From: Candidatus Hydrogenedentota bacterium
GTDB taxonomy: Bacteria > Hydrogenedentota > Hydrogenedentia > Hydrogenedentales > JAJRTN01
Reading direction: 5' to 3'
DNA: 62,134 bases
NCBI GenBank assembly: GCA_024278275.1
Contig: JAJRTN010000167.1
Coordinates: forward strand, 1 to 62,134
The translations under genes were made by a program, and so were the position numbers. This document shows, in pieces, positions 55,722-60,957 of this stretch (positions are counted from its first letter, which is position 1; each line of letters opens with the position of its first letter). The notes under the pieces are model-generated. The model was not told the origin of the DNA and made no database searches. It saw nothing but the letters and a program-made list of their open reading frames with translations.

Positions 55722-55958
55722 GTGCTGTTCACCAAGCCAAAGAAAGCCATCGGACTCGATATCGGCACGCATTCCATCAAAGCAGTGCAGCTATGCCGGT
55801 CCGGTGGGCGCCTGTTCGCCGAGGAAGTGGGCTACGCCCAGGTGGATCGCAACCAGGTGAACGCCGACCCGGTCGCGGCACATGCGGACGCCGTGCGTGA
55901 ATGCCTTCGCCATTTATCCGTGCAACAGTCCTGCCTTGTCACGGGGTTGCCCGGCTAA
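55722..55958 (+). CDS. pilM: PilM, N-terminal part, ended by an in-frame TAA
   Basis: A GTG at 55722, with AAGGAG about 10 nt upstream, starts LFTKPKKAIGLDIGTHSIKA, the actin-like ATPase opening of PilM (GLDIGTHSIK is phosphate loop 1). The frame ends after SCLVTGLPG at TAA (55956-55958). The next codons in the same frame, TVVIRYPRLDESAKANLDEA, are exactly the PilM continuation, so a Gln or similar codon seems to have become a stop. The whole would be about 415 residues. See 55962-56966 for the rest. PilM is the cytoplasmic actin-like protein that links PilN to the pilus motor. Confidence 0.85.
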   Translation: MLFTKPKKAIGLDIGTHSIKAVQLCRSGGRLFAEEVGYAQVDRNQVNADPVAAHADAVRECLRHLSVQQSCLVTGLPG

Positions 55959-55961
55959 ACC

Positions 55962-56966
55962 GTGGTGATCCGGTATCCCCGACTTGATGAAAGCGCCAAG
56001 GCCAACCTGGATGAGGCCGTTGAGCAGGAGGCGGGGCAGAGTATTCCCTACGATCTGAGCGAGGTTTCTCTCGACTGGACGTTACTGGACGAGGTGGACG
56101 AAGGCGAAGCGAAACAGCTCAAGATACTGCTGGTAGCGGCCAAGCACGAGATTATCGATTCCCGGGTACAAATTCTTGAAGTGGCGGATCTGCAAAGTTC
56201 TATTCTGGGTGTTGACTCTCTGGCCCTGGCGGACGCGGCGGAGGCCTGTGATTTCCTGCGGGTGGGGGAGACGGTGGCGCTGGTCAACATTGGGCTTACC
56301 TCGGCCAGCATCCATTTCGTGAAGGACGGCATATCCAATTTCATTCGCTACGTGAATTGGGGTGCCCGTGAAATGATCCAGGCCATTGCCAAGGAGCATC
56401 GGTGCGAATACGAAGAGGCCGAGCAAATCCTTGTTGATATCTGTTCAAATACGGAGGTCACGCCGCCGGCGGTGGAAGAGGAAAGCGCGGCAGACACGGT
56501 TGCCGAGGCCGCGTCGGCGGTGGAGGCCCTGGATGATGATCCTTTCGGTGTGCCCGACGCTTTGGGCACCGATTCCCTGCTTGATCCCCTGGGGGAAGAC
56601 CTCGGGGACGTGGGGGCAAGCCAGGGCGCGCTTCCGGGCCAAGGGGCTTCGCGGGGTCCGCGGGACATACTTTCGGTTCCCCTTCAGCGGATGGCATCCG
56701 AAATTCGGCGATCATTCGATTATTACGAACACCAGTTGTATGAACGTCCCGTTGATCGGCTGGTGCTCAGTGGCGGCGTCGCCGAACTGCCTGTCATCTC
56801 CGAGATCCTGGTGGAAGAATTGGGTGTTGAAAGTGTGGAAGTGGCCAATCCGGCCGCCTCGGCGCTCGTCCTGGGAGACGATGTTGCCATGGGTCCCATG
56901 CTTGAGCACCCGTCGAAGTTCATGGTGGCCCTTGGCCTGGCCGCAAGGGGAATGGCGGACCTATGA
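55962..56966 (+). CDS. pilM: PilM, C-terminal part, same frame after the stop
   Basis: Reading resumes in frame 3 nt after the TAA. A GTG pair at 55962 and 55965 could allow reinitiation (VVIRYPRLDESAKANLDEAV). Features of PilM: GQSIPYDLSEVSLDWTLLDE, KQLKILLVAAKHEIIDSRVQ, ADLQSSILGVDSLALADAAE, VALVNIGLTSASIHFVKDG (second phosphate loop) and DRLVLSGGVAELPVISEILV near the end. An acidic insertion near 175-225 (VEEESAADTVAEAASAVEAL and following) is unusual. Without the N-terminal quarter the ATP site would be incomplete. It overlaps pilN by 4 nt (ATGA). Confidence 0.85.
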   Translation: MVIRYPRLDESAKANLDEAVEQEAGQSIPYDLSEVSLDWTLLDEVDEGEAKQLKILLVAAKHEIIDSRVQILEVADLQSSILGVDSLALADAAEACDFLRVGETVALVNIGLTSASIHFVKDGISNFIRYVNWGAREMIQAIAKEHRCEYEEAEQILVDICSNTEVTPPAVEEESAADTVAEAASAVEALDDDPFGVPDALGTDSLLDPLGEDLGDVGASQGALPGQGASRGPRDILSVPLQRMASEIRRSFDYYEHQLYERPVDRLVLSGGVAELPVISEILVEELGVESVEVANPAASALVLGDDVAMGPMLEHPSKFMVALGLAARGMADL

Positions 56967-57688
56967 TTCTAATCAATCTCCTGCCACAGCATTTGCGCCC
57001 CCTCAAGCGCACACCACTGCCCTACATCGGGGTGTTTATCGTCATGTTGGCGGCCTTTTTCGTCATGGCCAGCATGTTCTTGAGCGTGTCGGCCCAAATA
57101 GGGGAGATCAATCAGAAAAAGGCCAAGACGCAAAACAGCCTTAATGAGTTGGCCGACGTGGTGAAGCGTTATGAAGATTTGGACAAGAAAAAGGCTCGCC
57201 TCGTTGACAAGACGATTGCCATCGAGGAGATCCTCAAGGATCGCATCCTCTGGTCCGAGCAGCTTTTCCACCTGGATCGGCTCAAGCCCGACAATATGTG
57301 GTACAGCCGGATTCGCGTGACCCAGCTTCCCTTCAAACAGCGCGTGCGCAAAGTTGATCCCAAAACGAAGAAGGCCATGAAAGACAAGAACGGGAAGGAC
57401 TTGTGGGAAAACAAAACCATTAAGCGGCCCGTGCTTGAAGTGAGCGGCTACGTGGTACCCAGTGAAGAGGAATCCAACTATATCGCGCCCCTTACCCGCA
57501 GCACCACCGAAGACCCCGACTTTTCCAAGCTCTTCACCCTGTACCGATTCCGCCTTGAAGACACCGTTTTCAACGATCAGCCCGTCCGCAAATTCGTGTT
57601 GGAATACGTTATAGAGCCTTCCAAAAAGGATGGCGACGCCCCTAGTGAAGGCGGGAAGAAACCCGCGCAACCCAAGGGGAAAGCATAG
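56963..57688 (+). CDS. pilN: Type IV pilus assembly protein PilN
   Basis: A 241-residue protein with the family opening ILINLLPQHLRPLKR (the INLLP motif that binds PilM), a membrane helix (YIGVFIVMLAAFFVMASMFL), a coiled coil (INQKKAKTQNSLNELADVVK, then RYEDLDKKKARLVDKTIAIE) and a beta-rich periplasmic end. It is longer than Pseudomonas PilN (about 200) because of an extra charged segment (KVDPKTKKAMKDKNGKDLWE) and a lysine-rich tail. It links PilM to PilO in the inner-membrane alignment complex. Confidence 0.9.
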   Translation: MILINLLPQHLRPLKRTPLPYIGVFIVMLAAFFVMASMFLSVSAQIGEINQKKAKTQNSLNELADVVKRYEDLDKKKARLVDKTIAIEEILKDRILWSEQLFHLDRLKPDNMWYSRIRVTQLPFKQRVRKVDPKTKKAMKDKNGKDLWENKTIKRPVLEVSGYVVPSEEESNYIAPLTRSTTEDPDFSKLFTLYRFRLEDTVFNDQPVRKFVLEYVIEPSKKDGDAPSEGGKKPAQPKGKA

Positions 57689-58261
57689 ATGTTCGAGTTC
57701 TTCAAGGGTACCGTCACGCCAAAGGACTGGGCTATCGTTGGGATTCTCCTCGCTGTGACAGCGGTGATTTTCGCCGCCTTTTACTTCGTCGTGCTGGACA
57801 ACAGGAAGCAGCAGGTTGAGGTGTTAAGCGCTGAACTCAAGGATATCGAGGCGCAGCTCCGGATAGCCACGCAATACAAGCAGAATCTCCCCCAACTCGA
57901 ACGGGATGAACTTCAAATGGGGAAGCTCGTGGAGGGCTTCCAGAGTCGATTGCCCGACAAGCGTGAGATCCAGGGGCTTCTCGAAAAGTTCGAACGCTAT
58001 GGCGATTCCCTGGGGCTTCGCATTGTTCTTACCTATCTGCCCACGACGACCGACAAGCACAAGCAAACGCTCCCGTACAAGATTACCGCTTACGGGAACT
58101 ACCACCAGATTGCCAGTTTCATCAATCTGCTTGAGCGTGAACAGCGCTACCTGAAGATATCCGATGTGGATATCGGTGAAGAAGAGGAAGGCGTCGCTGA
58201 AGCCACGTTTGTTCTCAGCACCTTCATCTTTATTCAACAGCCGGAAGGGGCCGCCACATGA
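57689..58261 (+). CDS. pilO: Type IV pilus assembly protein PilO
   Basis: A 190-residue protein starting directly after the pilN stop. A membrane helix (WAIVGILLAVTAVIFAAFYF) is followed by a coiled coil (NRKQQVEVLSAELKDIEAQL) and the typical PilO motifs (LPQLERDELQMGKLVEGFQS, LPDKREIQGLLEKFE) and ferredoxin-like domain (YHQIASFINLLEREQRYLKI). It pairs with PilN in the periplasm. The stop overlaps the next ATG (ATGA). Confidence 0.92.
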   Translation: MFEFFKGTVTPKDWAIVGILLAVTAVIFAAFYFVVLDNRKQQVEVLSAELKDIEAQLRIATQYKQNLPQLERDELQMGKLVEGFQSRLPDKREIQGLLEKFERYGDSLGLRIVLTYLPTTTDKHKQTLPYKITAYGNYHQIASFINLLEREQRYLKISDVDIGEEEEGVAEATFVLSTFIFIQQPEGAAT

Positions 58262-58770
58262 ACCCCGAAAACAGAAAGCAGATGATTATTCTCGGCGTAT
58301 TGGTGGGCGCCCTGGCCCTGGTGGGGGCCTACCAGTTCCTTGGCGCCGGCAGCCCGCCCAAAACGCCCCGGAAATCCACGGCCACCAAGAAAGCAACGAC
58401 CGATACCAGGATCAATCAACCCAAGTTCGAGGGCGATCTGGATCAGCTTTTGGCCGGCATTGCCGAGGTAACGTTCGACTACCGCCGTGCAACGGGGGAT
58501 CGCCCCAGTCCCATGCAACCCAAGATCGCCACCCGCGTCATGATTGACGACACGAGCGGAACCCAGCAACTTCGTTCCTATGACGTGGAACGACTGCATG
58601 TGAGTGGTATTGTTTGGGATGAGACGGACCCCTACGCCGTGGTTGAAGGGGAAGTGGTCTCGAATGGGTACGACTATGGCAACGGTCTCAAAGTCCTTTC
58701 CATCGAGCCAGACCGCGTTATCTTCGATCTGGACGGCTTTGCCATCCCGGTTGAAATGGAGGAGCTGTAG
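58258..58770 (+). CDS. Probable PilP-position protein of the pilus operon
   Basis: A 170-residue protein between pilO and pilQ, the place of pilP. It has an N-terminal membrane helix (MIILGVLVGALALVGAYQFL) instead of a lipobox, a basic linker, a beta domain from about 60 on (QLLAGIAEVTFDYRRATGDR), and a C-terminal strand region that fits the PilP-type beta-sandwich (GIVWDETDPYAVVEGEVVSN, then LKVLSIEPDRVIFDLDGFAI). The role would be to link PilN/PilO to the secretin. Likeness to PilP is by position and fold pattern only. Confidence 0.75.
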   Translation: MNPENRKQMIILGVLVGALALVGAYQFLGAGSPPKTPRKSTATKKATTDTRINQPKFEGDLDQLLAGIAEVTFDYRRATGDRPSPMQPKIATRVMIDDTSGTQQLRSYDVERLHVSGIVWDETDPYAVVEGEVVSNGYDYGNGLKVLSIEPDRVIFDLDGFAIPVEMEEL

Positions 58771-58773
58771 ACC

Positions 58774-60957
58774 ATGAGCCCTATTAAACCCATCACGATG
58801 GCCGTGATCGCTCTGCTCTGCGCGACGACGCTTTCACTGCTTTGGGTCTCCGCCCCGGTGCAGGCGCAACGCGCGACGGTGCCACACTCGCCTTTGGCCC
58901 GGCAACTCGGCGATATTGCCGCCCTCTCGGTCCCTCGCATTAAACCCGCGGGGGGCGCGGCCTCCGCCCCCTCCACCCCTTTGCTCCCGGTCGATCAACT
59001 CCAGGCCGCAATCAGCACCCGAACACTTCCCAAGGCCGAACGTCAACGCGTGTCCAGGCTTGTAGAAGACCTCGAGGCGGTGGCCACTCCCGCCATTCTT
59101 CTTCCCCGTGACAACGTCGCCCTCCAGGCCGCGCAGGGGGAAGAAGACACGGCCACATCCAACACCGGGGAAGAAGCCCCGGGAATCACGCCTCCCCTTG
59201 ACGTGGCGGAAGACGAACAGGTCAAGCCCGCTCCGCCACGGGAACGGGCCGCCCCTGTCGAGCCCCCCGTGAAAAGAGAAGTAAAAGCCCGTCTTTCATC
59301 GGACAGCAACACGGCCATCGCCAGTGTTCAGCATGCCCTCGACAAAGACGCGGCCGCCGGCCGGGATATTCTTGCCGCCAGCGGCCTCTCCGATGGCACG
59401 ATGCAGGCCGGGGCCGCGGGCACGTACCACGGCGACCCCATGGAACAGCCCGTCAATGTGGATTTCCGCGAGATGCAGCTTAGCAACGCCATTGCTCTCC
59501 TCGCGCACAAAGCGGGTATCAATGTGATAGCCGGTACCGACCTCGATACGCCGATAACCATGTACCTCCGCAATGTTCCGCTTCGCCAGGCCATAAAGAC
59601 CGTTCTTCGGAGCAAGGGACTGGGCCTGCTCGAACAGGAAGGCATCTATCACGTCGTGACCTACGAAGAGGCCATTTCCGCGGAACGCGAAACCATCATG
59701 ATTCCCCTTGAGAATGCCAAGGCGAGCGAATTGGCCACTGTGGTGACGGACATCATCAAGGGCACGCCCGAAGACACATTGACAAATGTATCGACCAACG
59801 ACGCCGCCAATATCCTCGTCATCAACGGCCCTAAATCCAAGCTGGGTGATTTGGCGCGGATGGTCCATGATCTGGACGTGGCGGAGCAGGTCCTGCCCAC
59901 TGTTACCGAAGCGATCAAACTGAACTATGCCGACGCGGCCTTGCTTGTTCCCATGGTTGAGAAACTCCTCACGCCCGAGATAGGCAACGTGACCGCTGAT
60001 GAGCGCGCCCGTCACCTGGTTGTCACCGATGTGCCGGTTGTCCTCGCCCAGATCCGCGACCTGGTCGCCCAACTCGATATCCCTGTCAAACAAGTACTCA
60101 TTGACGCCATGGTGGTGGATGCCGTCCTTGAAGATGGTGCGGATACCGGTGTGGATTGGATCCTTGATACGGTGCGCAGCCAAAGCCGGCGCCAGGCCGC
60201 CTTGGGTCAGAATGGAAGGTTCCAAGGCAATTTGCAGGAACTTGGTTTGAACGCCAACATGAACGTGGGCAATGCCGCCGGCATTCTTAATTTTGGCGTT
60301 CTCACCGATAACTTTGACTGGCGCGGCATTATTCAGGCCGAAGTGCGCAACAGCGACAGCCGCCTTCTTTCCAACCCCCGGTTGCGCACCATCGAGAACA
60401 AGCCCGCGACCATCACCATCTCCCAGGAGATTCCCTATGTGGAATTGACGGAAACCAATTTGGGCGGTTCCCAGACTTCCACGAAGTTCAAGGACATCGG
60501 CACCCTCCTGGAGGTGACACCGCGTGTTACCCATGATAATCACGTCATCGTGGACATCCTCGGCAAGGAAAGCGGCACGCAGGGCGTATTCAACAATGTA
60601 CCCATCGAGGATAAGCGCCAGATTGAGACCACGGCCCGTATGATGAGTGGACAGACAATCTATATTGGCGGGCTGCGTAAGAATGATGAGAACTCCACCA
60701 TTCGCAAGATCCCGGTCCTCGGGAATATCCCTGTCGTGAATTTCCTCTTCCGCTCCAACCAGCGCAAAGAGACGGCCACCGAACTGCTCATTTTCCTGAC
60801 GTGTACGGTGGTTGAGGAAGATGAATCCCTCACCCCCCATGAAAACGCGAAATACGAAGAGGCCCTGAACGAAGACTTTGATGTGAATGCGGAGCGTACC
60901 GTACTCCAGAGCATAGTTCACCCCAATCAGCCGCGAACAAAGATCGGCGGTGAGTAG
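58774..60957 (+). CDS. pilQ: Type IV pilus secretin PilQ
   Basis: A 727-residue secretin. A signal peptide (MAVIALLCATTLSLLWVSAP) and a low-complexity linker of about 170 residues precede an STN/secretin N0-type domain (NVDFREMQLSNAIALLAHKA, then GINVIAGTDLDTPITMYLRN), N1-type domains (IMIPLENAKASELATVVTDI; AIKLNYADAALLVPMVEKLL) and the secretin barrel from about 480 on (RLLSNPRLRTIENKPATITI, IPYVELTETNLGGSQTSTKF, TIYIGGLRKNDENSTIRKIP, VLGNIPVVNFLFRS). It forms the outer-membrane gate through which the pilus leaves. The terminator at 60980 follows its stop. Confidence 0.94.
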   Translation: MSPIKPITMAVIALLCATTLSLLWVSAPVQAQRATVPHSPLARQLGDIAALSVPRIKPAGGAASAPSTPLLPVDQLQAAISTRTLPKAERQRVSRLVEDLEAVATPAILLPRDNVALQAAQGEEDTATSNTGEEAPGITPPLDVAEDEQVKPAPPRERAAPVEPPVKREVKARLSSDSNTAIASVQHALDKDAAAGRDILAASGLSDGTMQAGAAGTYHGDPMEQPVNVDFREMQLSNAIALLAHKAGINVIAGTDLDTPITMYLRNVPLRQAIKTVLRSKGLGLLEQEGIYHVVTYEEAISAERETIMIPLENAKASELATVVTDIIKGTPEDTLTNVSTNDAANILVINGPKSKLGDLARMVHDLDVAEQVLPTVTEAIKLNYADAALLVPMVEKLLTPEIGNVTADERARHLVVTDVPVVLAQIRDLVAQLDIPVKQVLIDAMVVDAVLEDGADTGVDWILDTVRSQSRRQAALGQNGRFQGNLQELGLNANMNVGNAAGILNFGVLTDNFDWRGIIQAEVRNSDSRLLSNPRLRTIENKPATITISQEIPYVELTETNLGGSQTSTKFKDIGTLLEVTPRVTHDNHVIVDILGKESGTQGVFNNVPIEDKRQIETTARMMSGQTIYIGGLRKNDENSTIRKIPVLGNIPVVNFLFRSNQRKETATELLIFLTCTVVEEDESLTPHENAKYEEALNEDFDVNAERTVLQSIVHPNQPRTKIGGE

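Follow-up and report, generated by a model that had tools for sequence, protein, structure and literature searches.

An isolated in-frame stop codon in an otherwise intact pilM gene of a Candidatus Hydrogenedentota draft genome

In type IV pilus loci the genes pilM, pilN, pilO, pilP and pilQ usually follow one another as an operon in that order (PMC3724824). A pilM gene heading such a pilMNOPQ cluster is found in a draft metagenome assembly of a Candidatus Hydrogenedentota bacterium, but its frame is interrupted at codon 79 by a TAA. This raises the question of whether the organism has lost its PilM, makes it in two parts, reads through the stop, or has a normal gene that is misread in the assembly. 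Among the papers searched, none treats Hydrogenedentota together with type IV pili. The window analysed here, 62,134 nucleotides long, is contig C138 of the draft (5.35 Mb in 200 contigs, 96.2% complete), and the features of its pilus cluster, all on the plus strand, are the following.

55722 to 55955, plus strand: 5' piece of pilM (78 codons), carrying the GLDIGTHSIKAV phosphate loop and the first half of the presumed actin-like subdomain
55956 to 55958, plus strand: in-frame TAA as codon 79, where 33 of 34 relatives have Gln
55959 to 56966, plus strand: 3' piece of pilM, 335 codons and a TGA, presumed SHS2-like subdomain and remaining actin-like fold, fully open
55962 to 55967, plus strand: GTG GTG, proposed restart, Val-Val codons also present in eight stop-free relatives
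56963 to 57688, plus strand: pilN, intact, its ATG overlapping the pilM TGA (ATGA); NF045709 matched weakly in its PilN-like part, and synteny
57689 to 58261, plus strand: pilO, intact; PF04350 (E 3.9e-15), and synteny
58258 to 58770, plus strand: pilP, assigned by position and by its match to relatives, with no Pfam or NCBIfam hit
58774 to 60957, plus strand: pilQ secretin, intact; PF00263 (E 8.4e-39) and TIGR02515 (E 2.4e-71, 241 bits, below the cut-off of 284)

The pilM gene as a whole extends from 55722 to 56966, and the TAA shares its frame both with the GTG at 55722 and with the downstream open frame of 334 codons that closes at 56966. The lesion consists of this one stop, with no frameshift and no second lesion, and it cuts the 414-codon gene into 78 and 335 codons. 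The four genes downstream, which an earlier note on this DNA had described as looking intact, are indeed open and in frame, and pilN, pilO, pilP and pilQ follow in the same order in each of the 12 relatives whose locus is long.

The two sides of the stop belong to one PilM. When read through, the 414-residue product matches TIGR01175 with 174.5 bits (cut-off 133), its residues 8-411 aligning to profile positions 4-348 of 348, and PF11104 with 162.3 bits (cut-off 27), bearing out the proposal that a single protein continues across the TAA without a shift of frame. Neither piece alone covers the whole family: residues 1-78 score 21.6 bits against PF11104, where 27 would be needed, and for the 3' piece the best-matching stretch starts at profile position 88 of 340. 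The gene thus resembles type IVa PilM (TIGR01175/PF11104; solved relatives 3jc8, 5eou, 5eox and 2ych) in its whole-length match when read through, in the gene order of its cluster and, in an AlphaFold2 model (mean pLDDT 84), in an actin-like fold with an SHS2-like insert, these subdomain names being assigned from general knowledge of PilM and FtsA; it differs from it in the nonsense codon at residue 79 and in a stretch of low model confidence at residues 245-308. Residue 79 lies in the model between a strand at 70-76 and a strand at 81-84, which would place it at the entry to what we take for the SHS2-like subdomain. Since the break falls at this entry, the half of the actin-like domain that carries the phosphate loop would be cut off from all else.

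Is the stop shared by relatives, and has the rest of the gene decayed? We aligned 34 homologues codon by codon, their source records being almost all Candidatus Hydrogenedentota metagenome assemblies, with the closest genomes compared belonging to the same order only. Codon 79 encodes Gln in 33 of them (25 CAG and 8 CAA) and Asn in one, and none of the 34 has a stop there; a search among them for a relative that shares the stop and still has intact pili found none. A single change from CAA, as had been suggested, is therefore plausible given the Gln codons of the relatives. That the stop sits inside a conserved stretch was confirmed: the flanking LPGQTVVIRYPR motif is among the best-conserved parts of the alignment, and the columns G78, V82, R84, Y85 and P86 are invariant. 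Identity to the nearest relatives is the same on both sides of the stop or nearly so (65% before and 64% after it to L008; 59% and 59% to L009). Only 2 of 69 near-invariant columns deviate in this pilM, compared with 0-14 in intact homologues (0-3 in most); one of the two is at codon 75, four codons upstream of the stop, where Gly (GGG) stands here versus Ala in 33 relatives and Ser in one. By these alignments the rest of pilM is as conserved as in its relatives.

The absence of further damage also limits how far the gene could have drifted. In a pilM frame evolving neutrally, each unit of substitutions per site is expected to bring some 30-38 new stops. Because no second stop or frameshift is present, neutral drift would be limited to about 0.03 substitutions per site or less if 0.1 indel per substitution is assumed, or to 0.08-0.10 when stops alone are counted. 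With so little drift possible, the lesion would be either recent or not real. In every relative in which it was found whole, pilM is intact. For two genomes (G003 and G022) no close pilM match turned up; as the contigs that carry their PilQ are short (8-9 kb), an assembly gap is likely, and pilM loss in these relatives was dropped as an explanation.

Taken together, the stop is very probably an isolated nonsense lesion without evolved function, in a pilM that is otherwise intact and ordinary. As the sequence stands, translation would stop after residue 78, and the pilMNOPQ operon would not be expected to yield a working PilM; the TAA would be a consensus error or else a real mutation so young that no further decay has followed. 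Like a single-lesion pseudogene or a base error in a draft metagenome assembly, it is one point lesion in an otherwise open frame, is absent from relatives and is accompanied by several similar lesions in the assembly, and no difference from such cases was observed. Among the four readings offered by the earlier note, recent loss by point mutation and an assembly or base-call error survive, while reinitiation and read-through found no support.

The other lesions of the draft bear on the choice between the two surviving readings. Family searches of the draft gave the genes listed below, each with an isolated lesion.

Contig C22 (L119): sulfatase, in-frame TAG in an otherwise open gene
Contig C186 (L120): sulfatase, in-frame TAA in an otherwise open gene
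Contig C75 (L131): Gfo/Idh-type protein, in-frame TAA in an otherwise open gene
Contig C88: membrane transporter, in-frame TAG in an otherwise open gene, at a position that is Glu in 11 of 11 relatives
Contigs C80 (L121) and C48 (L122): sulfatases split by a frameshift

One of these lesions falls in a gene that has matches in all 20 relatives searched. No internal stop was seen in 65 ABC-ATPase matches or in 18 secretion-ATPase matches of the same draft, nor in 134 sulfatase places of three relatives. Sulfatase lesions number 4 in about 60 genes here versus 0 in about 128 in relatives (Fisher p = 0.0097; 2 versus 0 and p = 0.10 for in-frame stops alone), a comparison that is non-random, the family having been picked for its large size, and in which gene numbers are approximate. 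A coding-potential scan of 276 kb gave 18 split-gene candidates including pilM, and no other stop was shown to interrupt a single gene with 7 of the 17 others tested against Pfam: five of the seven join unrelated families across the stop and are adjacent genes, while for the remaining two Pfam gave nothing useful. Stops that seemed to lie inside MFS matches on contigs C178 and C154 had the look of normal boundaries between genes and were set aside. A lower accuracy of the assembly and the presence of several young pseudogenes would each be compatible with this number of lesions. The transporter on C88 (L133, contig positions 60500-63500, match at 772-2070 on the minus strand) is an MFS-like membrane protein that also carries, in the loop between its halves, an MshEN domain of about 80 residues (Pfam E 6.6e-10) that is absent from the two relatives inspected, L135 and L138.

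That the base is wrong in the assembly, whether through a consensus or base-call error or a promoted minority variant, and that the organism's pilM is intact, has in our view a chance only just short of even. It would agree with the status of pilM as a phylum-wide, syntenic core gene with no other decay, with the presence of more isolated lesions in the same draft (including the one in a gene matched in every relative searched) and with the stop-free sulfatases of the three relatives. If all lesions were base errors, however, the family survey, with roughly 5 stops over some 140 kb of domain sequence, would imply that close to 0.1% of bases are wrong. This is a high rate for a consensus built from short reads, and for this reason we keep the estimate near even. 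The sulfatases and the Gfo/Idh-type protein may, in addition, be real pseudogenes; 2-3% of broken genes is normal in real bacterial genomes.

To a genuine and very recent nonsense mutation, by which no full PilM would be made from the pilMNOPQ operon and PilM-dependent pili would probably be lost, we give a chance somewhat below even. In nature, pilus genes often carry loss-of-function alleles, several isolated lesions are present in this genome, and a second, intact PilM-like gene exists elsewhere in it. Against such a mutation stands the intact pilM of all relatives in which the gene was found whole, the two apparent absences being possible assembly gaps. We lean very slightly towards the wrong base over the real mutation, because the lesions also hit genes that are intact throughout the order.

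It is improbable that both pieces are made, the second by reinitiation at the GTG at 55962, and that they assemble into a split PilM. A start-type codon does lie 3 nt past the stop, both pilM frames and the downstream genes are open, and in the model the break falls between two strands at the presumed SHS2-like entry. The GTG pair nevertheless encodes the Val-Val of TVVI, and the same GTGGTG is found in 8 of the 34 relatives, all of them stop-free, which speaks against an evolved restart at this site. The best Shine-Dalgarno-like match before it (GGGGTTG, 12 nt away) is marginal, being weaker than those of pilM, pilN, pilO and pilQ and similar in strength to that of pilP, so that a restart site specific to the split gene and provided with a ribosome-binding site was not found. 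No split pilM was seen in relatives, and the break would part the phosphate loop from the remaining protein. Nothing points to an evolved restart, and an accidental reinitiation at 55962 may occur. The stronger form of the proposal, in which a stop and a coupled GTG restart at the SHS2-like entry yield PilM as two proteins and the pilus still works, seems to us very improbable.

Least probable of all is a read-through or recoding of the TAA, for instance as Gln. In its favour are the Gln of the relatives at codon 79 and the share of TAA among the isolated internal stops, three of five, even though genes of the window end in TAA less often than in either of the other stop codons. Against it, the genome holds four RF-1-domain genes, two of which are as long as release factors, with open frames of 363 and 413 codons, no suppressor anticodon was found among 41 tRNAs (a tRNA may be missed in a genome 96.2% complete), TAA terminates 5 of 35 likely window genes, and the stop is conserved in none of the 34 homologues. 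Past the terminal TAA of those five genes the open frame is short in four (9-38 codons) and longer in one. Systems with a suppressor tRNA or a reassigned stop resemble this case in having an in-frame stop at a conserved sense position; here, in contrast, release factors are present, no suppressor tRNA was found, the stop is not conserved, and another internal stop replaces a different amino acid. Indeed, because the TAG on C88 stands at a Glu position, the internal stops of this genome do not mean one amino acid. This rules out Gln at all of them, and together with the release factors, the tRNAs and the use of TAA as a terminator it led us to reject a genome-wide recoding of TAA.

Other pilus-type genes are present in the draft. 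The second PilM-like gene (L100, contig C193, 3280-5676 on the minus strand) is intact, and its 799 codons encode a PilM-PilN-like fusion that has a long tail rich in Gly and Met; its nearest NCBIfam model is the Amuc_1101 family, far below cut-off, and it has matches in similarly long frames in most relatives. At least eight strong matches to PilB/GspE-type ATPases lie on contigs C1, C193, C30, C129 and C144, and several pilus or type II secretion systems therefore appear to coexist in this genome.

To conclude, the pilM stop is best regarded as an isolated lesion, and it is a caution that, in a draft metagenome assembly, a lone in-frame stop in a core gene calls for a look at the reads before it is given a biological meaning. 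Should the mutation be real, the strain would be one without the PilM of its pilMNOPQ operon that yet keeps a PilM-PilN-like fusion elsewhere in its genome.
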